A stretch of DNA of 59,587 bases from Candidatus Hydrogenedentota bacterium (GTDB lineage Bacteria > Hydrogenedentota > Hydrogenedentia > Hydrogenedentales > SLHB01), in contig JAIBAQ010000017.1 of NCBI GenBank assembly GCA_019695095.1, positions 1 to 59,587 of the forward strand. The letters run 5' to 3'. The translations under genes were made by a program, and so were the position numbers. Positions 11,104 to 21,677 of the stretch are shown here, piece by piece; within the stretch, counting starts at the first letter, position 1, and every line of letters starts with the position of its first letter. Below the pieces are notes generated by a model. That model made no database searches and had not been told where the DNA came from. It saw only the letters and a program-made list of their open reading frames with translations.

Positions 11104-12474
11104 TTATACGATCTCCCAGCCCTTGCGGTACTGCTTCGATACGAACTCGTTGGCTTCTGGGCAATTGGTGACCTTCATGTTCGGGCCATCCCATTCCAGC
11201 TTCTTGCCGGTGCGCAGCGCCAGGTTGCCGAGCAGAACGATTTCCGTGAAGGGGCCGGAATAGTCGAAGTTCGAGCACGCGGGCTTGCCGCCTTTGCACG
11301 CCTGAATCCAATCCTTGTAGTGATCTTCTTCCGGGATGCGTTCGAGCGTTGGGGCCGGAGCCTTGTAGTCCTTCATCAAGGAAATCGGGTGCAGGGTGGG
11401 CTTTTCGCCGTAGCAATGCGCCGAAATGGCTCCCTTTTCGCCGATGAACAGCGAACCGTTGTCGCCTTCGCCGAGGACTTCGTCGGCAGGGGTGTTCGCG
11501 GGGCGCGGGGGCATGTTGCCGCCGTCGTGCCAATACAGCGTGAGGGCGGGCATATCGCCGCGGGCCGGGAACTCGTACTTGATGATCGACTTGTTCGGGG
11601 CCTGCTCCTTGGTGATGCCTTCCTGCGACACGACTTCAACGCTGAGCGGATGACCAAGCTTCATGGCCCAGTTTGGCGGATCCATGATATGGCAGGCCAT
11701 ATCGCCGAGCGCGCCGCAGCCGAAATCCCACCAGCCGCGCCATACGAAGGGGTGATAGCAGTTCTTGCCCGTGACCGGGTGCTTGCTGACATAGGGGCGG
11801 TCGGGGGCGGGACCTAGCCACACGTCCCAGTTGAGTTCCTTGGGAGGCGTGTCTTTGATATCGGGACGGTCCAAGCCTTGCGGCCAAATCGGACGGTTGG
11901 TCCAGCAGTGGACTTCTTTGACCTGACCGATAGCGCCCGACCAGATCATTTCGCACAGTTCGCGCACGCCGTTGCCGGAATGGCCCTGGTTACCCATCTG
12001 GGTGGCGACCTTCATCTTGCGGGCGGTCTCGGCCAGCTTGCGGGCTTCCCAAATTGTGTGCGTGAGGGGTTTCTGTACGTAGACGTGTTTCCCGGCCAGC
12101 ATCGCGCCCATCGCAGCGACGGCGTGAAAATGGTCGGGGGTAGACACCGTGCACGCGTCGATGTCTTTTTGCTTCTCGAGCATGACGCGGAAATCCTGGT
12201 AGATCTTCGCATTCGGATGCTTCGCGGCCATTTGGCGTGTCTGGTTGAGGTCGGCATCGCACAGGGCGACGATGTTTTCCGATCCGCATCCGCTCAAATC
12301 GGCAATGCCTTTGCCTCCCGCGCCGATGCCCGCAATGTTTAATTTCTCGTTGGGCGAACGCGTGCTGATTTTGGCCGGGGCCTTGCCCTTTTTGCCCGTG
12401 GTGGCGCATCCGGCGGCGATGGCCGCCGCAGACCCCGCAAGGAACATGCGACGTGAAATCTCTGGCTTCTTCAT
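11104..12474 (-). CDS. Tat-exported Gfo/Idh/MocA family oxidoreductase
   Basis: A 456-residue NAD(P)-dependent oxidoreductase homologue, probably acting on a sugar or cyclitol in the periplasm. The N-terminus has the twin-arginine signature 'SRRMFLAGSAAAIAAGC'; the cysteine could also serve as a lipidation site. The Rossmann fold shows 'NIAGIGAGGKGIADL', and the family signature 'VYVQKPLTHTIWEARKL' contains the conserved Lys-Pro. The ATG at 12474 is chosen because AGAGAGG lies 7 bases before it and the Tat motif follows directly. Cofactor import through Tat is usual for this exported group. Substrate unknown. Confidence 0.9.
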   Translation of the reverse strand: MKKPEISRRMFLAGSAAAIAAGCATTGKKGKAPAKISTRSPNEKLNIAGIGAGGKGIADLSGCGSENIVALCDADLNQTRQMAAKHPNAKIYQDFRVMLEKQKDIDACTVSTPDHFHAVAAMGAMLAGKHVYVQKPLTHTIWEARKLAETARKMKVATQMGNQGHSGNGVRELCEMIWSGAIGQVKEVHCWTNRPIWPQGLDRPDIKDTPPKELNWDVWLGPAPDRPYVSKHPVTGKNCYHPFVWRGWWDFGCGALGDMACHIMDPPNWAMKLGHPLSVEVVSQEGITKEQAPNKSIIKYEFPARGDMPALTLYWHDGGNMPPRPANTPADEVLGEGDNGSLFIGEKGAISAHCYGEKPTLHPISLMKDYKAPAPTLERIPEEDHYKDWIQACKGGKPACSNFDYSGPFTEIVLLGNLALRTGKKLEWDGPNMKVTNCPEANEFVSKQYRKGWEIV

Positions 12475-12729
12475 AGTGGGACCTCTCTTCGTGAACACTG
12501 GAAACGGTTGCGACTAGCCCCGCAGTCGCGGTCGGTGATATCGCGCCTGGGCCGCGGCATGCGCTACAAGGGCAAGACTCACAGGTGCAGGCGGGACGCC
12601 CCCAAACACCCGAAGAAAGAGCATAGACCAATCGGAAGGGATGATCAACGGGGATTTCGAGGGGCGGTAACGGCGTAAATCTCAACGACTATCATTCCGA
12701 CAGCACGTGGCTTTTGCCAATCGGGCCTA

Positions 12730-13034: not shown

Positions 13035-13976
13035 TCAGAAGAGTTCGGTCTGCTTGGGCCGGGTTTGCGGAGGTTCGCTCATGAACCGGAGCAGGCGCAT
13101 TGCATCAACATCGCCGTCTTGCGCCAGGGGCAACGCGCCTTCGCGGAACAGGGTTTCTCCCATGCCGCCGTCGTCCGCGCCGGGGTGCACGAGCACGATC
13201 TTCCCCTGCTCCAAGCCACACCGTCCCGCGCGGGCACTTCCTCCGGCCTTGCGCGGTTCAATCACACACACAACATCCGCGAACGCGCTGATTGTCGCGT
13301 TGCGCGTGACGGCATGGACCGTCTGCCACACGGCACTCAGCGGGAATTGGCTGACCAACGTGAGTACGCCGCGCTCCAGCATGTCCGCGACGGCGGGCGC
13401 GGGGTAGTTGAGCATCCCCATCGGCAGCACCATCACGGTTTTGCCGCCCGCTTGAGCGGATTCGTTGTGCGCGATGGTGTCGACGCCTTCCGCGCCTCCG
13501 CTGACGACCGTCACGCCGGCTTCCGCGAACGTACGCGCACACTTGGCGGCGAGCAACGCGCCTTCCGCCGAGACTTTGCGCGCGCCGACCACCGCCGCCG
13601 ACGGCGCGTCCAATTGAGCGATATCACCAAAGCAGAACAAGAACGCAGGCGCGTCGTTGCCGAGACACAGGGTCAATTTCGCGGGGTAGTCATCATCTGT
13701 AGCGAGAAACACGCGGCCTCCGGCGGAGAGAAAGCGCTGCACTTCGCTTTCAACCTTGTCGATCACGGTTTCACTCGTCCGCTGCAAAGCGGAAACAAGC
13801 GTGTCGAAATCGCCGACAGGCAAGCGCTCCAGCAGGCGCTGGGGTTCCAGACGCGTGAGATAAAAAACGGAGACGCCAAGGTGTTGCGCCGCATGCAGCG
13901 CGCGGCGCGCCGTGGCGTTGCCGACGCCGGAGACGTGGCATAGCGCCAACAACGTGGCAACGTCGCGTGTGTTCAT
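13035..13976 (-). CDS. dprA: DNA-processing protein DprA
   Basis: Loads RecA on incoming single-stranded DNA during natural transformation; cytoplasmic. The Rossmann-like core is visible as 'AAVVGARKVSAEGALLA' and 'VVSGGAEGVDTIAH', followed by 'GGKTVMVLPMGMLNYP' and a late 'AVTRNATISAFADVV' segment. An N-terminal helix-hairpin-like part precedes it ('ALCHVSGVGNATARRAL'). The C-terminal winged-helix domain of some DprA proteins is absent. The ATG at 13976 is preferred because GAGGGG lies 5 bases before it; an earlier in-frame ATG (14018) lacks this. The gene is divergent from the amino-sugar operon. Confidence 0.93.
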   Translation of the reverse strand: MNTRDVATLLALCHVSGVGNATARRALHAAQHLGVSVFYLTRLEPQRLLERLPVGDFDTLVSALQRTSETVIDKVESEVQRFLSAGGRVFLATDDDYPAKLTLCLGNDAPAFLFCFGDIAQLDAPSAAVVGARKVSAEGALLAAKCARTFAEAGVTVVSGGAEGVDTIAHNESAQAGGKTVMVLPMGMLNYPAPAVADMLERGVLTLVSQFPLSAVWQTVHAVTRNATISAFADVVCVIEPRKAGGSARAGRCGLEQGKIVLVHPGADDGGMGETLFREGALPLAQDGDVDAMRLLRFMSEPPQTRPKQTELF

Positions 13977-14067
13977 GACTACCCCTCGGACACTTTCTTT
14001 TCGCGGCTTCGCGCTCATGCTACCATGCGCGCGACGTCTGGTACAGGTCGCGGATTGAGGAGCAGCA

Positions 14068-15306
14068 GTGATTCAGTTTCCACGAGAGTTTCTGTGGGGG
14101 GCAACGCTTCCCGGTCACCCAATTGAGGGCGCGAACTTTGCGGCGGATTGGTGGGCCTGGGAACAGCGCCCGGGCCGTATAGCAGACAAGAGCAACTCGC
14201 AAATTGCCGCGGGGCACTACGAGCGGTACGAAAGCGACCTTGATCTTGCGAGGCAACTCTCGATGAAGTCGCTTGTCTTCTCGGTGGAATGGAGCCGTGT
14301 GGAACCGGTTCTCGGCGAGTACGACGACGCGGCCCTGGCTCACTATCGCGACGTGGCGCGCGCCATGAAGCGCAGGCAGACTGAGCCGATCTGTGCGCTG
14401 TGGAATGTAACGCTCCCGAAATGGCTTGCGGATCGGGGTGGTTGGTTGTGCAGTGATGCTCCTCATGCCTTCGCGCGGTATGCCGCGCGCGTGGCAGAGA
14501 AGATTGCGCCGGTGTGCAAACGATGGATTCCGTTGACAACCCCCGTTCACTATGTCCAGCACGCGTATATCGACGGGGCGTGGCCCCCGCAAAAGCGTCG
14601 CAGCGATCTGGGCGTGAAGGCGCTTCGTAACCTCGCGCTTGCGCATCGAAAATCCGCGGATACGATTCGTTCGTTGCAGGGAGACGCGTCCATCGGGGTG
14701 TCTGTCCGAGGCCAACTGCTTGACGTGGCGAATGCGTGGAGTGCTTGGGATGCGCGCGCGGCACGTACCGAAGAGACGTTCGCAAACCATGCTTTTCAGG
14801 GGCTGTTGCGCGAATCCGAATTCGATTTCACGGCGTTGTCGTATGCGGGTGCGATCGACTCGGTGCGTTTTGCGGCGTGGCGGCCATTGCGCCGCTTTCG
14901 GAGAGTGCTTGCGGATGCTTCCGAGTCTTTTCCGGAAGGTTTGTTGCGCCTTATCCGCGAAATGCGCCGCTATCGCAAGCCTGTGCTCATCGCAGGCGTC
15001 GGTACGGCCACGCAAGATGAAGCGGCACGGTGTCAGTTCTTGCTGGAACACGTCTTGCAGACCCACCGCGCGATTGCGGAGGGTTGTGATGTGAGAGGAT
15101 TTGTTTACGGCCCCATGCTGGATGGGTTTGAGTGGCATGCGGGATATACTCAGCGATTGGGGCTTGTGGCCGTGGATCGCGAGACTCTGACGCGCGCCGC
15201 GAACCCGGCTGCGTACCTTCTCAAAGACTTGAGCGATACCAACGGCGTGCGTCGAAGCGCGGTGATGACGTATTGTCCTGGGATGACGGTGGATGGAGCG
15301 GCGTGA
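14068..15306 (+). CDS. GH1-fold protein lacking both catalytic glutamates (pseudoenzyme)
   Basis: A 412-residue cytoplasmic protein that aligns over its length with GH1 beta-glucosidases. Shared landmarks are the N-terminal 'FPREFLWGATLPGHPIEG', 'VFSVEWSRVEPVLGEYD', and the C-terminal 'MLDGFEWHAGYTQRLGLVAV'. The acid/base motif TxNEP reads 'PLTTP' (residues 155-159), and the nucleophile motif I/V-TENG reads 'IAGVG' (308-312). The glycone-binding Gln (QxEG) and His (HWDLP) are also changed. It should not hydrolyse glycosides by the GH1 mechanism. It is the first gene of the operon and overlaps the kinase-etherase start (TGATG), so a linked role in amino-sugar metabolism is inferred. Confidence 0.85.
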   Translation: MIQFPREFLWGATLPGHPIEGANFAADWWAWEQRPGRIADKSNSQIAAGHYERYESDLDLARQLSMKSLVFSVEWSRVEPVLGEYDDAALAHYRDVARAMKRRQTEPICALWNVTLPKWLADRGGWLCSDAPHAFARYAARVAEKIAPVCKRWIPLTTPVHYVQHAYIDGAWPPQKRRSDLGVKALRNLALAHRKSADTIRSLQGDASIGVSVRGQLLDVANAWSAWDARAARTEETFANHAFQGLLRESEFDFTALSYAGAIDSVRFAAWRPLRRFRRVLADASESFPEGLLRLIREMRRYRKPVLIAGVGTATQDEAARCQFLLEHVLQTHRAIAEGCDVRGFVYGPMLDGFEWHAGYTQRLGLVAVDRETLTRAANPAAYLLKDLSDTNGVRRSAVMTYCPGMTVDGAA

Positions 15307-17147
15307 TGACCAGTGCTCATTTGATTCTTGCCATTGACGGCGGCGCAACCCGCACGCGCGTGGGTCTCTATGACAACCACCGCGCACTCGTGACGGAAAC
15401 GTCCGGAGGACCTTCCAATCCGGTGGTGTGCGGCATGGACGCCAGCGTCCGCAACATTACGACGTTGTGCCTTCGCTGCCTGGAAGGGCTCGAAGGCACA
15501 CCGCTGATCGTGGCAGCCGGCATCTCTGGAGCGACGCGTCATCGCGAGCCGATGGCGCAGGCCCTGGCGTCGGCGTTGAATGCGCGCCGCGCTGTGGTGA
15601 CGAATGACCTGTATCCGCTCTTGTTCGCGAACGCGGGCGTGGAACCCGGCGTGGTCGTTATCGCGGGCACCGGTTCCAGTGTCGTGGGGCAGAACGCGGC
15701 GGGCGAAACGCTGATCGTCGGCGGCAAAGGCACGTTGCTGGGCGACGACGGCAGCGGTTACCAGATTGCGGTGACGGCGCTGCGCGGGATCACCCACGCA
15801 CTGGACGTTCTGCAAACGCGTGCGCGTCTCGCGGACGGGTTGGCGAAGGCGGCAGGACTCGATACGTTTGAGGACTTCGTAGTCTGGTCGCACAACGCGA
15901 CCAAAGAGGAGATCGCGCAACTCTCCGAGACGGTGTTGGAGTTCGCCAACAACGGCGATGACTTCGCGTTGAAGTGCCTTGAAAGCCAGGCATCATTGCT
16001 GGCCGGACAAGCTGTGTCTGCGCTCATCCAATTGCACTTGCGACCGGATACCCCCATTTATCTCAGCGGCGGTCTCTTTGAGCATTCGTCGCGGTACCGC
16101 GCGATGTTCGAGCGCGCTTTGCTTCGCCCCGAGACCACGGCGCGACCGGTGTTGGCCGCACTGCGCGGACACCGCGCTGTTGCAGAACTCGCGTTCGCGG
16201 AGACCATTCCGGCGCATCTGCCGTTGGCTGAGGCCGAGGGCCAGCAGGGTGGCGGGGAATCGTTGTCGCCGACGGAAGGACATGCATCGGACGAAGTCAC
16301 GATTGATCGGTTGACGGCGCAGGAAATCGTGAAGCGCATGAACCGCGCGGACGCGTCCGTGGCGGTCGCGGTGAATCGTTGCAGCGACGAGATTGCGCGC
16401 GCCATCGAGTTTGCCGCCGAGGCCATCGCGTCGGGTGGACGTATCATCTACACGGGCGCGGGCACGAGCGGGCGGCTCGGTGTGTTGGACGCATCGGAAT
16501 GCCCGCCGACGTTCGGTGTGCCGCCTGAGCGCGTTGTCGGCATCATGGCGGGCAGTGACCGCGCTTTGCGCGATAGTGTGGAAGGAGCCGAGGACGACGA
16601 AAGTGCGGCGCGAACCGACTTGACGCTGCTGCATCCGCCGCTGGGCGCAAGGGACGTTGTTGTGGGTATTGCGGCGTCGGGCACGACGCCTTACGTCAAA
16701 GCGGGATTACGTCACGCGGCCGCGTGCGGGGCGCGCACGGTGTTGCTGTGCTGCAATCCACGGGCGAAAGACAGCGCCGACTGCGTGATCGCCGTGGACA
16801 CCGGGGCGGAAGTGGTCGCGGGTTCGACGCGCTTAAAAGCCGGCACGGCAACGAAAATGGTCCTCAATATGATTTCCACCGGGGCCATGGCGCTGGCGGG
16901 ATACGTCTATGACGGGCGGATGGTGCGTATGCGGCCCGCCAACTCCAAGCTGCGGCGGCGCGCCGCGCGTATGGTGTCCGCGCTCACGGGACTAACAGAA
17001 GACCTCGCCGCGCGCCGATTGGAAGATGCGGGCGACGATATTGCCGTGGCGGTGCTGATGACACGGCTTGCGCTGGATCGCGAGCAGGCCATCGGCCGGC
17101 TCAATCATGCCCACGGCAACCTCCGCCGCGCACTGGAGGAGTCGTGA
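15306..17147 (+). CDS. murQ: Fused BadF-type amino-sugar kinase and MurNAc-6-P etherase (MurQ)
   Basis: A 613-residue fusion. Residues ~1-300 are a BadF/BadG/N-acetylglucosamine-kinase ATPase: 'LAIDGGATRTRVGLYD', 'VVIAGTGSSVVG', 'GTLLGDDGSGYQI' and 'IYLSGGLFEHSSRY'. Residues ~325-613 are MurQ with 'IIYTGAGTSGRLGVLDASEC', the downstream 'SVEGAEDDE' and 'GSTRLKAGTATKMVLN', so both catalytic glutamates are present. MurQ cleaves the lactyl ether of MurNAc-6-phosphate to GlcNAc-6-phosphate and lactate. The kinase half would supply phosphorylated MurNAc or GlcNAc. The ATG at 15306 overlaps the stop of the GH1-like gene, and an upstream in-frame extension would lie wholly inside that gene. Confidence 0.93.
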   Translation: MTSAHLILAIDGGATRTRVGLYDNHRALVTETSGGPSNPVVCGMDASVRNITTLCLRCLEGLEGTPLIVAAGISGATRHREPMAQALASALNARRAVVTNDLYPLLFANAGVEPGVVVIAGTGSSVVGQNAAGETLIVGGKGTLLGDDGSGYQIAVTALRGITHALDVLQTRARLADGLAKAAGLDTFEDFVVWSHNATKEEIAQLSETVLEFANNGDDFALKCLESQASLLAGQAVSALIQLHLRPDTPIYLSGGLFEHSSRYRAMFERALLRPETTARPVLAALRGHRAVAELAFAETIPAHLPLAEAEGQQGGGESLSPTEGHASDEVTIDRLTAQEIVKRMNRADASVAVAVNRCSDEIARAIEFAAEAIASGGRIIYTGAGTSGRLGVLDASECPPTFGVPPERVVGIMAGSDRALRDSVEGAEDDESAARTDLTLLHPPLGARDVVVGIAASGTTPYVKAGLRHAAACGARTVLLCCNPRAKDSADCVIAVDTGAEVVAGSTRLKAGTATKMVLNMISTGAMALAGYVYDGRMVRMRPANSKLRRRAARMVSALTGLTEDLAARRLEDAGDDIAVAVLMTRLALDREQAIGRLNHAHGNLRRALEES

Positions 17148-17204
17148 CTCTTCACCTCATGACGCCGAATGCCTACCGGCGCGCTCAAACCCGGTGACGC
17201 CGGC

Positions 17205-18899
17205 ATGACTCGAACTTCGCGCCCTTGGTTGGTTTTCTGCGGCCTCGTCTGCGCCGTGCTGGTTTCCACGTGTTCCTGCCGGACGCACCGGAAGACCGAA
17301 CCCAAACCTGCGCCGATACCGCCGCCCGCAGTACGTCCGTCGCCCGAGGTTACGCCTCCCCCTGCGCCGGCACCGGTCGTGCAGCCGGTTCCACAACCTC
17401 CCCCGGCGCCGGCACCCGCACCGAAACCAACGATGGTTTCGTCGAATCCCCCGGTACGGATACGCCTGACGCACGGGATTCGCGAGATCGCGTTTGAGAC
17501 AACGGCGCCGGGCTCCGTTGAGTCGCAAGGCCGGAGAACAGACCTGACTCCGGGCCGGTGGACGCTTCGGTTGACCCAAGCGCGGCCGCCGCGCAGACAG
17601 TTTCACGTGTTCACGAAGACGTTCAAACCGTGGGAAGAGAACGAACTCAAGACCTATGTTTCCGAGTGGAAGTCACGCGGCTATCCCGTCGAAGTGGCTT
17701 CGCTGGGACATCCGATTCAGACTGCAAGCGGGTATGTGCTCGATTGCCGCCAGGAATGGGTGTCGCTTCAACGCTTCTCGTCGGAGGCCGAGGCTGACGC
17801 TTTGCGCAAGCGCCTCGAAGCGCAATCGGTATGGGCATGGATACGTCCCGAAGTGCTGGAAGCGGGCGCAGGAAACGCCACGCTCGTTGGCGGATCTCCC
17901 CAAACCTCGCAGTCCGTTTCGTTGCCGCTTACCGTACATGGAACGCAGCCTGTCCGAGTGAGCGCGGGGTCCAAGAGCGGCGTGTACGCAGGCGATTTGA
18001 GCGTGGGTGTCGGTCCGGATTCGATGTTCGAATTGTTCGAGACGTCTCCCGTGGAGGATTACCTCGCGGGCGTGCTGCCGGCGGAGATGCCCGCGTTGTG
18101 GCCCGTCGAGGCGCTCAAAGCGCAGGCTGTGGCAGCGCGCAGCGACGTGTTGATGCACATGGCCATCAAGCACGTGTTGGAAGGGTTCAACTTCACCGAC
18201 AGCGAAGGCGACCGTGTGTACGGCGGTTTCAGTGGACGCCACCCGAATACCGACGTGGCGGTGCGCGAAACGGCGGGCCGCGTGCTGGCAGCGGCGAACC
18301 GCATTGTGGCGGCGACGTTCAGCGCCAACTGCGGCGGGTATTCCGAGAACAACGAGACCGTCTGGTCGGCTCCAGCCGATCCGGCCCTGCGCGGCGTGCC
18401 GGACTATCCCACTGGAAAGGGTCCAACCGGCGGCCCACTATCCGAGGGCATGGGCAAATGGCTCGGCAGCCCGCCCAAGGCCTATTGCAGCGACGACGCC
18501 GCGAACTTCCGGTGGAGCAAGAAGCTGACAGCCGCGGAGGTCACGCGCCTTGTGAACCAGAAATACCGCGTGGGGACGGTGCGCACGATTGAGGCCGGCG
18601 AGCGGGGCCCGAGTGGACGCCTAAAGTGGGTACGCGTAACGGGTTCGGAGTCCACGGCCACCATACGAAAGGAATTGGCCATACGCCAGGCGTTTGGCGG
18701 TTTGCCAAGCGCCATGTTTATAATTGAATCGACGCCCGGGCCGAACGGTCCGGTTGGCTTTGTGTTTCGTGGCGGCGGACGCGGCCACGGCGTGGGGTTG
18801 TGCCAGCAGGGGGCGCGCGGAATGGCCTTGGCAGGCAAGCGCCACGACGAGATACTCGCGCATTATTTTTCAGGTGCTACCTTGGAGACCCTCGAGTAA
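17205..18899 (+). CDS. SpoIID/LytB-domain protein, exported
   Basis: A 564-residue protein related to SpoIID, a lytic transglycosylase that cuts stripped glycan strands of peptidoglycan. The N-terminus is a hydrophobic export signal with nearby cysteines (possible lipoprotein), followed by a Pro-rich linker (about residues 27-80). A possible SPOR-like segment ('KTYVSEWKSRGYPVEV') precedes the SpoIID domain. That domain contains 'EDYLAGVLPAEMPALWPVEA' with the catalytic-type Glu (about residue 294) and ends in 'GRGHGVGLCQQGARGMA'. The ATG at 17205 places the signal peptide at the start; one at 17169 is also possible. It follows murQ directly in the operon. Confidence 0.85.
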   Translation: MTRTSRPWLVFCGLVCAVLVSTCSCRTHRKTEPKPAPIPPPAVRPSPEVTPPPAPAPVVQPVPQPPPAPAPAPKPTMVSSNPPVRIRLTHGIREIAFETTAPGSVESQGRRTDLTPGRWTLRLTQARPPRRQFHVFTKTFKPWEENELKTYVSEWKSRGYPVEVASLGHPIQTASGYVLDCRQEWVSLQRFSSEAEADALRKRLEAQSVWAWIRPEVLEAGAGNATLVGGSPQTSQSVSLPLTVHGTQPVRVSAGSKSGVYAGDLSVGVGPDSMFELFETSPVEDYLAGVLPAEMPALWPVEALKAQAVAARSDVLMHMAIKHVLEGFNFTDSEGDRVYGGFSGRHPNTDVAVRETAGRVLAAANRIVAATFSANCGGYSENNETVWSAPADPALRGVPDYPTGKGPTGGPLSEGMGKWLGSPPKAYCSDDAANFRWSKKLTAAEVTRLVNQKYRVGTVRTIEAGERGPSGRLKWVRVTGSESTATIRKELAIRQAFGGLPSAMFIIESTPGPNGPVGFVFRGGGRGHGVGLCQQGARGMALAGKRHDEILAHYFSGATLETLE

Positions 18900-18925
18900 C
18901 CGCGGAAAGGAAGAAACAGCCACCT

Positions 18926-20086
18926 ATGTTATTTGAAGGAATCCGCAAAAAGACGACGCGATTCGCCGTCGGGATGACGTGCGGCACCGCGGCCCGGGGA
19001 ATCGACGCCGCACTCGTGCGCATCAAGGGCAGCGGCGATAACCTCCACATCAAATACATCAAGTCGAGGCATTTCCCGTTTGCCCCCGGTCTGCACACGC
19101 GGCTCATCGTGGCGCGAAAAGACGCGCGGGAGCTGGCGCTCCTCAACTTCGAGCTGGGCGAACTGCTGGCCGAAGCCGCGCAAGACATGATCCGCATCGC
19201 GCAGAAAGAATTGTGCGAAGTCGATTTCATCGCCGTAGACGGGTACACCGTGTCACACAATCCGCCGCGCGGCTACGATCTATCCATCGGCACTTTCCAA
19301 GTCGGCGAGCCAGCCATCATCGCCGAGCGCACGCAGCACCCGGTCGTGTCGGACTTTCGGTCACGCGACATGGCGGCGGGAGGACAGGGCGGACCCATCA
19401 GCGCATATGCCGACTGGGCGCTGTTTTCGCGCGAAGACCGAACCGTTGCGCGCCTTCATCTCGGGGGCATCACGAGCATCACGGTGATTCCGCCGAAGTT
19501 CGACGAGATCATCGCGTTCGATGCGGGTCCCGGCATGATCGTGCTCGACGGCGCGGTGCGCCAACTGACCAGTGGCACCCAGGAAATGGACCTCAAGGGT
19601 GCCGCTGCCGTGAAGGGCGTCGTCATCGACGAATTCCTCGAGTTCCTGCTTGATCATCCGTTTTTCGCGAAAGTGCCGCCCAAGACCACGAGCCGCGACG
19701 AGTTCGCGCCGGAGACGTATCTGCGCGATGCCCTTGCGGCGCGGAAGGACCATTCGCTCGACGACCTCATGGCAACGGTTACGGCAGCGGTGAGCTATTG
19801 CCTTGTCCGCGCGTACAACCGCTTCGTCAAACCGCAATTCACCGTATCGCGCGTGATTGTGAGCGGGGGCGGCGTGAAAAACCAGGCGCTCATGCAACGG
19901 CTCAAGAACGGCATGGGCGATGCCGTGCTCCGCGCCAGCGACGAATACGGTTTGCCGGCGGATGCGCTCGACGCCATCGGCGTCGCCGTGCTCGGCAACG
20001 AAACCCTCTGCGGAAAGCCATCCAACGTGCCGCACGCCACCGGCGCGCAACAGTCGGTCACCTTGGGGCGGATTACGCCGGCGTAA
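18926..20086 (+). CDS. Divergent anhydro-N-acetylmuramic acid kinase (AnmK-like)
   Basis: A 386-residue ASKHA kinase of the AnmK family, which opens and phosphorylates anhydroMurNAc to MurNAc-6-phosphate, the substrate of MurQ. 'SDFRSRDMAAGGQGGPISAY' keeps the catalytic Asp of the DFRxxDxAxGGQGAP motif, and 'FDAGPGMIVLDG' and 'VSGGGVKNQALM' fit the family. Several motifs differ: GTSLDGxD reads 'GTAARGID', HGQT reads 'DGYT', GGIAN reads 'GGITS', and GPGN reads 'GPGM'. Substrate preference may therefore differ. The ATG at 18926 follows GGAAAGGAAG and comes 26 bases after the SpoIID gene. It is the last gene of the operon. Confidence 0.85.
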   Translation: MLFEGIRKKTTRFAVGMTCGTAARGIDAALVRIKGSGDNLHIKYIKSRHFPFAPGLHTRLIVARKDARELALLNFELGELLAEAAQDMIRIAQKELCEVDFIAVDGYTVSHNPPRGYDLSIGTFQVGEPAIIAERTQHPVVSDFRSRDMAAGGQGGPISAYADWALFSREDRTVARLHLGGITSITVIPPKFDEIIAFDAGPGMIVLDGAVRQLTSGTQEMDLKGAAAVKGVVIDEFLEFLLDHPFFAKVPPKTTSRDEFAPETYLRDALAARKDHSLDDLMATVTAAVSYCLVRAYNRFVKPQFTVSRVIVSGGGVKNQALMQRLKNGMGDAVLRASDEYGLPADALDAIGVAVLGNETLCGKPSNVPHATGAQQSVTLGRITPA

Positions 20087-20300: not shown

Positions 20301-21521
20301 TCACTGAGCCTTCTTGATCATCTCCGATTCATTCAAACGCGTGCAGAGGATGACGTTCAATGCGGTGATGGCGATGAAGAAGATCATGAAGGGGGTCATC
20401 GAGCCGCCGGCGGAGCGGAAGGCGTCCATGCCGTAGATGAAGGCGACGCCGGAGATTTGTCCGGCCAATAGCAGGAGGCCTTGGGAGGTGGATTCGGGGG
20501 CGGGATAGCTGAGTTCGGCACCATACTGAAACCCGATGGGTCCGGCGCTCATGATGAAGAATCCCAAAACAAAACTCGATGCCAACAGCACGGCGAAGTT
20601 GGTGGCGAATGCCAAGCCCGTCAAGCCGGGAATCGTGAATGCGGTGGCCGTTATGAGAAACGGTATGCGTCTGCGTATTTTGTCGGAGATGGGCGGAAGA
20701 ATCGATGCGCCCAGCACGCCGCCGATCATCATCAGCGCTCCGACGGCGCCTGCCTGAGTCGAATCGAGACCTCGAGGACTGAGTATCTGTTCAATCCAGG
20801 TTGTGACGGCATTGAAGATGCCAAGTCCAATCAGAAACATGAGTAGAAGCAACACAACCTGTTTCTGTTTGAACATGTGCTTCAGTCCCGCGATGACAAG
20901 GAAGCGCTCTTCCTGGCCGGGAGGAGACGGCGGAGTCGGCGGCGCTTCTTTGGCAAACACGAGAAACAGTACCGCGCCGACAACGGAAATCACGCCATAA
21001 GTCTTCAGCATGCCGTCGATGCCCCAGGCGTGGGCGAGCAGCGGCGTGGCCGCCATGGCCAAGATGATTCCGATGTATTGCGACAACGCGGCGAGACCGG
21101 TCGCGGTTGCGCGTTGGCTGATTGGAAACCACTTCGCGCTGATGGCCGTGTAGGCGTTGAGTATGAACGGTTGCGCCACGGCAAGGCCGAATTGGCAGAC
21201 GCTTACCATCGCGTAGTTTGCCGCGTATACCCCTTTGAGCAAGCCAAAAATGCCGATGAGCGCCGCCCCCGCACCTACGCCGACACGGATTCCGTAGGTA
21301 TCGATGACGTACGACGCGGGAATGCTGACCGCCAGATACACAAGCATGAAGAGCATCGACAAGAAGCCTATCGACAGCGGCGTCACGGCATAGTACTGGG
21401 CCGCTTCCGTCGTGATGGGCGCCAACGCCACCCAGTGAATCTCAATCACCGCGTTTAGAACGGCGAACACCAGCAGGACGATCCAGCGGTATCCGTAGAC
21501 CTTCGTTGGCGTATTCTCCAT
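20301..21521 (-). CDS. MFS transporter (FLVCR-like)
   Basis: A 406-residue major facilitator superfamily transporter with about twelve hydrophobic helices and a charged central loop (around residues 190-210). The segment 'SIPASYVIDTYGIRVGVG' between helices 2 and 3 is the expected conserved loop, and 'SAKWFPISQRATATGL' is typical of FLVCR/phthalate-like members. Substrate is not recognisable. The ATG at 21521 is preferred because it gives a normal N-terminus right before the first helix; a longer frame would add an unlikely basic tail. It converges on the amino-sugar operon and could supply or export a related compound, but nothing shows this. Confidence 0.8.
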   Translation of the reverse strand: MENTPTKVYGYRWIVLLVFAVLNAVIEIHWVALAPITTEAAQYYAVTPLSIGFLSMLFMLVYLAVSIPASYVIDTYGIRVGVGAGAALIGIFGLLKGVYAANYAMVSVCQFGLAVAQPFILNAYTAISAKWFPISQRATATGLAALSQYIGIILAMAATPLLAHAWGIDGMLKTYGVISVVGAVLFLVFAKEAPPTPPSPPGQEERFLVIAGLKHMFKQKQVVLLLLMFLIGLGIFNAVTTWIEQILSPRGLDSTQAGAVGALMMIGGVLGASILPPISDKIRRRIPFLITATAFTIPGLTGLAFATNFAVLLASSFVLGFFIMSAGPIGFQYGAELSYPAPESTSQGLLLLAGQISGVAFIYGMDAFRSAGGSMTPFMIFFIAITALNVILCTRLNESEMIKKAQ

Positions 21522-21677
21522 GCACCTGTCTTTCTTGTTCCGCCTCTCCGTCGCAATTTGCGGAGAGCGGAAATATTGAAAACGGTTTTGCCGCGACAGA
21601 ACGCAAAGAATACACGGGATGGACGGACGGCGGGTAACGGGGTTTCGCAACCGGGGGTCATTGAGCGATAAAGTCAA

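Follow-up and report, generated by a model that had tools for sequence, protein, structure and literature searches.

What is a GH1-fold protein without catalytic glutamates doing in an operon of peptidoglycan amino-sugar genes? The question is raised by a locus of a Candidatus Hydrogenedentota bacterium, found within a window of 59,587 nucleotides (contig JAIBAQ010000017.1), which is the whole stretch of DNA that was analysed. Four co-directional genes on the + strand, between positions 14068 and 20086, encode a GH1-fold protein, a fusion of a BadF-type kinase with MurQ, a SpoIID/LytB protein, and a homologue of AnmK. The reading favored here, with moderate confidence, is that they form a salvage operon for peptidoglycan amino sugars in which the GH1 protein acts by binding and the AnmK homologue is likely non-catalytic too.

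Organization of the Locus

The initial annotation described four same-strand genes with overlapping or very short junctions and named their products as a GH1-fold protein, a kinase–MurQ fusion, a SpoIID/LytB-type protein, and a divergent AnmK. The layout is present at that place and on that strand, and profile matches agree with the identities of all four products. The stop codon of the GH1 gene and the start of the kinase gene overlap in the sequence TGATG (15304–15308). The gap between MurQ and the SpoIID gene is 21 bp, or 57 bp with a possible alternative SpoIID start at 17205. The AnmK homologue likely starts at the ATG at 18926, 26 bp past the SpoIID gene; the mechanical open reading frame start is 18800.

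The operon is flanked by dprA (13035–14018, − strand; PF02481, 6e-38), which is divergent from it, stands outside the pathway, and adjoins the operon in many of the relatives whose neighborhoods were read. On the far side is a convergent gene for an MFS transporter (20301–21677, − strand). A Gfo/Idh/MocA oxidoreductase with a TAT-type signal is also encoded near the operon, at 11104–12498 (− strand).

The GH1-Fold Protein

The first gene (14068–15306, + strand) has a GTG start and encodes 412 amino acids. Membership of GH1 by descent and fold is supported by the PF00232 profile (E = 2e-56) and by a Foldseek match to the Pyrococcus horikoshii enzyme 1vff (E = 2e-35). This is the best match of the AF2 model (TMq 0.89), which has a mean pLDDT of 91.8. 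The (beta/alpha)8 fold is that of GH1 beta-glycosidases such as 1vff and Thermotoga maritima TmGH1 (TMq 0.86–0.89), and a DWWxxEQ loop is common to the window protein, 1vff, and the outgroup GH1s. No signal peptide is visible in the protein.

Alignment with intact GH1s places Thr158 (14539–14541, + strand) at the acid/base position, in place of the Glu of the NEP motif, and Gly310 (14995–14997, + strand) at the nucleophile position, in place of the Glu of the TENG motif. Both residues that mark an active retaining GH1 are therefore missing, as the initial annotation had claimed, and the nucleophile Glu is found in no member of the clade to which the protein belongs. The surroundings have changed with them. 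Over 13 active-site and −1-subsite columns, conservation is 0.58 in the clade versus 0.95 in intact GH1s, and over all columns it is 0.56 in the clade versus 0.53 in the outgroup. The equivalents of Q20, H121, N165, Y295, and W398 are not conserved within the clade; E405/W406-type residues are mostly retained. Relocated catalytic carboxylates were considered and rejected. The acids conserved in the clade are mostly structural positions common to ordinary GH1s, leaving no candidate for relocated catalysis. At the level of sequence, the lack of nucleophile and acid/base, the eroded −1 subsite, and the absence of a substitute conserved carboxylate make it probable that the window protein has lost glycoside hydrolysis. 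Residues conserved specifically in the clade are R34, P155, W227, and G261. SGR_2426, a full-length match in the PDB, is an active beta-1,2-glucosidase and gives no help as a guide to function.

Loss of the Glutamates and Selection on the Clade

A tree of 54 sequences was built from 28 Hydrogenedentota clade members and 26 outgroup or paralogous GH1s. Relatives with named sources assign the host of the window protein to Candidatus Hydrogenedentota, an uncultured phylum. The Hydrogenedentota relatives form a single clade (n = 28; SH-aLRT 100, a quick-tree value like all branch support here). Both glutamates are kept in all 26 outgroup and paralogous sequences, which come from Omnitrophota, CPR bacteria, Chloroflexota, and others. 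For the nucleophile Glu, presence changes once on the tree, and none of the clade members has it. For the acid/base Glu, presence changes seven times, and 15 of 29 aligned clade members keep it, L124 and L134 among them. Since about half still have this residue, some relatives of the window protein could retain chemistry.

The genes are nonetheless preserved. Pairwise dN/dS in the clade is 0.11–0.16, 39 columns are invariant among 20 sequences, and reading frames are intact and full-length in divergent members. Low dN/dS and intact frames rule out a pseudogene, and together with the intact fold (pLDDT 92) they indicate a maintained pseudoenzyme. At the threshold chosen for a phylum search, 35 of 68 genomes had GH1 matches; about 31 of the 35 were judged by score to carry clade members, the remainder having ordinary GH1s or doubtful partial matches. 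The protein is thus not essential to the pathway, being absent from about half of the genomes of the phylum. Hydrogenedentota-type GH1s also occur in assemblies labeled Nitrospiraceae (L127) and Rhodothermaeota (L130), which are probably mislabeled or misbinned.

Gene Neighborhood in Relatives

The relatives are draft metagenome-assembled genomes with contig ends, and the four-gene order was searched in them. It recurs in many genera, and the complete order of GH1, kinase–MurQ, SpoIID, and AnmK is present in several families of Hydrogenedentota. Related genomes thus keep the order, and the nucleophile Glu is retained in none of them, an outcome that favors the initial annotation. Most clade members directly precede a gene for the kinase (with or without MurQ), SpoIID, or MurQ. 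GH1 is followed by the kinase or kinase–MurQ gene in G000, G002, G004, G005, G006, G008, G010, G012, G018, G019, G020, G023, G026, G034, and G037, and at loci L126 and L131–L134. In G030 it is followed by MurQ. The kinase is not the unique partner, because no kinase adjoins GH1 in G001 and G015, where SpoIID and AnmK follow it. GH1 lies outside any visible operon in G033, G039, G022, and, for one of its two copies, G001.

In G007, G009, G017, G021, G025, and G032, dprA is directly beside kinase–MurQ with no GH1 gene between them, which makes GH1 an accessory of a core unit. Genus g3 has three genomes (L036, L037, L038) in which the GH1–kinase pair is kept and the kinase is unfused; no match to MurQ was found anywhere in these drafts.

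None of the operon genes was found near outgroup GH1s in the flanking DNA that was read, which extended up to 8 kb on each side (L138, L140–L146, L148–L160, L162–L164). Nucleophile loss and entry into the operon are therefore placed on the same branch. As a single event, this is an association without independent replicates.

The Kinase–MurQ Fusion and the SpoIID Protein

The second reading frame runs from GTG 15303 or ATG 15306 to 17147. Its N-terminal half (15303–16247, + strand) is a BadF/BcrAD-type amino-sugar kinase domain resembling MurNAc/GlcNAc kinases, with a PF01869 match (8e-24), phosphate loops, and the catalytic Asp. A PDB match is the MurNAc/GlcNAc kinase 8zo3 (4e-17), and the match to NCBIfam NagK (1e-22) scores 80.7 bits, below the 370-bit equivalog cutoff. 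The C-terminal half (16263–17147, + strand, to the stop codon) is a MurQ, or MurNAc-6-P etherase, domain with the conserved Glu-bearing motifs (TIGR00274, 2e-98; 329 bits against a cutoff of 302). The fusion is not unique to Hydrogenedentota. Full-length fusions of this kind, with 36–37% identity, occur in two Chloroflexota genomes (G081:C67:53356-55188, L170; G082:C27:99272-101101, L169), and in Thermomicrobium the kinase and MurQ genes are adjacent.

The third gene (17169–18899, + strand) encodes a SpoIID/LytB-type protein (TIGR02669, 7e-50) with an N-terminal membrane or lipoprotein signal and a Pro-rich linker, and is matched by SpoIID structures in the PDB. The Glu of the AEMP motif is invariant in 16 of 16 aligned orthologues. 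Residues of about 142–231 (17592–17861, + strand) form a SPOR-like domain, recognized by strand and helix order in the AF2 model and by a Foldseek match to the CwlC SPOR domain 1x60 (probability 1.00, E = 0.034). The Pfam SPOR profile PF05036 gives E = 0.17, below cutoff, with weak matches in 5 of the 16 orthologues. The motifs of the kinase, MurQ, and SpoIID are intact across relatives.

The AnmK Homologue

The last gene (18926–20086, + strand) encodes a degenerate AnmK homologue that is probably a pseudokinase. It matches the family over its full length (PF03702, 3e-74, 250 bits) and reaches no NCBIfam AnmK equivalog cutoff. Residues were compared by alignment with levoglucosan kinase (LGK). 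An Arg (18995–18997, + strand) replaces the Asp of the GTSxDG loop, aligned to LGK Asp26, which we take to be the ATP-loop Asp. The Glu of the AREA motif, aligned to LGK Glu362, is changed to Asp. The Asp of FDAGPG, aligned to LGK Asp212 and P. aeruginosa Asp182 and presumably the general base, is retained.

These changes define a group, which had escaped the initial annotation. In the operon-type AnmKs, the loop Asp is absent from 17 of 17 sequences. Asp occupies the AREA position in 13 of them, Ala in two, and Gly and Glu in one each; 10 keep the general-base Asp of FDxGPG and 7 lack it. Among the other 28 AnmK copies, the loop Asp is kept by 26 (the rest being one Glu and one truncation), the AREA Glu by 27, and the general base by every one. 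One change on the AnmK tree accounts for where the loop Asp is present. Degenerate and canonical copies coexist in nine genomes, including that of the window, and probably in a tenth (G021). The canonical copy of the window's own genome (L098, C135:15704-16780) is cut by a contig end. AnmK is canonical in families other than that of the window, for example in G039, G030, G025, G032, and G031. The sole AnmK of the genus g3 relatives is of the degenerate type. The dN/dS of this type is 0.03–0.09.

With both the ATP-loop Asp and the conserved Glu changed, the operon copy of AnmK probably does not serve as the anhMurNAc kinase of this pathway; judged by these residues, it is most likely a non-catalytic paralogue. 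The kept general base makes a changed activity possible, and the protein might instead be an active kinase with another substrate or cofactor. The general base in 10 of the 17 members, the window protein among them, speaks for an active kinase, as do the recurrence of the same Glu-to-Asp replacement in 13, which could be functional, and genome G006, which is listed as 100% complete and has only the degenerate type. Loss of the loop Asp throughout the group and of the general base in seven members make this alternative somewhat unlikely, and a non-catalytic paralogue is preferred.

Proposed Pathway and Role of the GH1 Protein

In the proposed pathway, the membrane-anchored SpoIID protein with its SPOR-like domain would cleave glycan strands outside the membrane. 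The fusion would act in the cytoplasm; from the families of its two halves, the kinase is predicted to phosphorylate MurNAc or GlcNAc, and MurQ to convert MurNAc-6-P to GlcNAc-6-P and lactate. Published activities of the SpoIID, kinase, and MurQ families fit salvage (PMC6635528, PMC5790795, PMC5061867). SpoIID proteins, known as lytic transglycosylases or muramidases, cleave glycan strands; sacculi yield anhydro products, and with the Waddlia protein denuded strands yield reducing ends (PMC6635528). In Tannerella forsythia, the MurNAc kinase and MurQ of murTKQ process reducing MurNAc without AnmK (PMC5790795), which would fit an AnmK released from catalysis. The turnover pathway that the initial annotation suggested fits SpoIID, the kinase, and MurQ, whose motifs are intact; its assignment of anhMurNAc recycling to this AnmK is probably wrong.

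The GH1 protein would have been recruited to the operon on the branch where its nucleophile was lost. It and the AnmK homologue are still preserved by selection despite their lost catalytic residues, and so are probably helpers, scaffolds, regulators, or sensors rather than catalysts. Binding, as a scaffold or allosteric regulator, is the most likely mode of action of the GH1 protein. The amino-sugar kinase is the first candidate partner, because it is the commonest neighbor, its gene overlaps that of GH1, and the three genomes of genus g3 with no MurQ match retain the pair. The conservation of this unusual first component bears out one part of the initial annotation; the other, that it perhaps acts in sensing, is for cell-wall sugars weakened by the drift of its −1 subsite residues.

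Such a sensor would be a lectin-like pseudoglycosidase whose GH1 pocket purely binds muropeptide sugars and reports to the kinase. It is unlikely, even though the gene lies in a sugar operon, E405/W406-type residues are mostly kept, and natural pseudoglycosidases often retain binding (PMC7828330). A conserved sugar ligand would forbid the drift seen at most other −1 subsite residues unless the ligand or its pose varies. The drift of the pocket speaks more for contacts with proteins than for simple sensing of sugars.

It is less probable still that the GH1 protein remains an enzyme, cleaving N-acetylated sugars such as GlcNAc-anhMurNAc with the 2-acetamido group of the substrate in place of the nucleophile and so performing the NagZ step. 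Such a mechanism does not need the residue that was lost, about half of the clade keeps the acid/base Glu, and the operon encodes no further glycosidase that could act on the disaccharide. However, Thr occupies the acid/base position of the window protein, the −1 subsite equivalents have drifted, the conserved acids are mostly those of ordinary GH1s, and three GH3 proteins of the same genome are alternative candidates for the step. One of the three (L167:415-2745, C52) is fused to three LysM-like repeats and is a possible wall-bound beta-N-acetylglucosaminidase. That GH1 and AnmK are decaying passengers of little or no function, kept only by linkage, would suit their drifting catalytic residues and the patchy occurrence of GH1 but is scarcely credible given the low dN/dS of both, the full-length frames, the invariant columns, and the confident fold.

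A role in binding thus remains the preferred reading. Its broader form, which is possible but doubtful, is a phylum-wide regulatory module of a GH1 pseudoglycosidase, joined in one family by an AnmK-derived pseudokinase, jointly binding intermediates of cell-wall sugars and controlling the MurNAc kinase–etherase and the cleavage of glycan strands.

Relation to Known Systems

Unlike GH1 beta-glycosidases, the clade lacks the nucleophile throughout, has lost the acid/base repeatedly, has an eroded −1 subsite, and belongs to a peptidoglycan-sugar operon. Alpha- and beta-Klotho, one precedent for the proposed role, are GH1-fold pseudoglycosidases that serve as binding partners (PMC7828330). Both they and the clade are non-catalytic GH1 folds, but Klothos are parts of animal receptors and differ in lineage, partners, and compartment. 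The fusion resembles MurK/MurQ salvage, in which a BadF-family MurNAc kinase is coupled to the etherase, as in T. forsythia murTKQ and with Clostridium acetobutylicum MurK (PMC5790795); here the two are one polypeptide and the operon has no transporter.

The SpoIID proteins of Bacillus subtilis and Waddlia chondrophila share the SpoIID/LytB domain and AEMP motif, whereas the present protein adds the SPOR-like N-terminal domain, the Pro-rich tether, and coupling to sugar-salvage genes. The degenerate LytM factors EnvC, NlpD, and DipM, another precedent, are dead hydrolases that regulate lytic transglycosylases and amidases (PMC10336132). Their fold is unrelated and they act outside the membrane, in contrast to a GH1-like protein with no visible export signal.

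Significance

For these Hydrogenedentota loci, the annotations "beta-glucosidase" and "AnmK" are probably wrong. No bacterial clade of GH1 pseudoenzymes was found described in the literature searched, where the known cases are the animal Klothos. A GH1 pseudoenzyme maintained across the phylum and tied to peptidoglycan salvage offers a testable case of metabolic enzymes turning into regulators. The paralogous AnmK with damaged ATP residues, accompanied in several genomes by a canonical AnmK elsewhere, is part of the same case. If true, the phylum-wide module would parallel the repurposing of Klothos, in bacteria and within primary metabolism.
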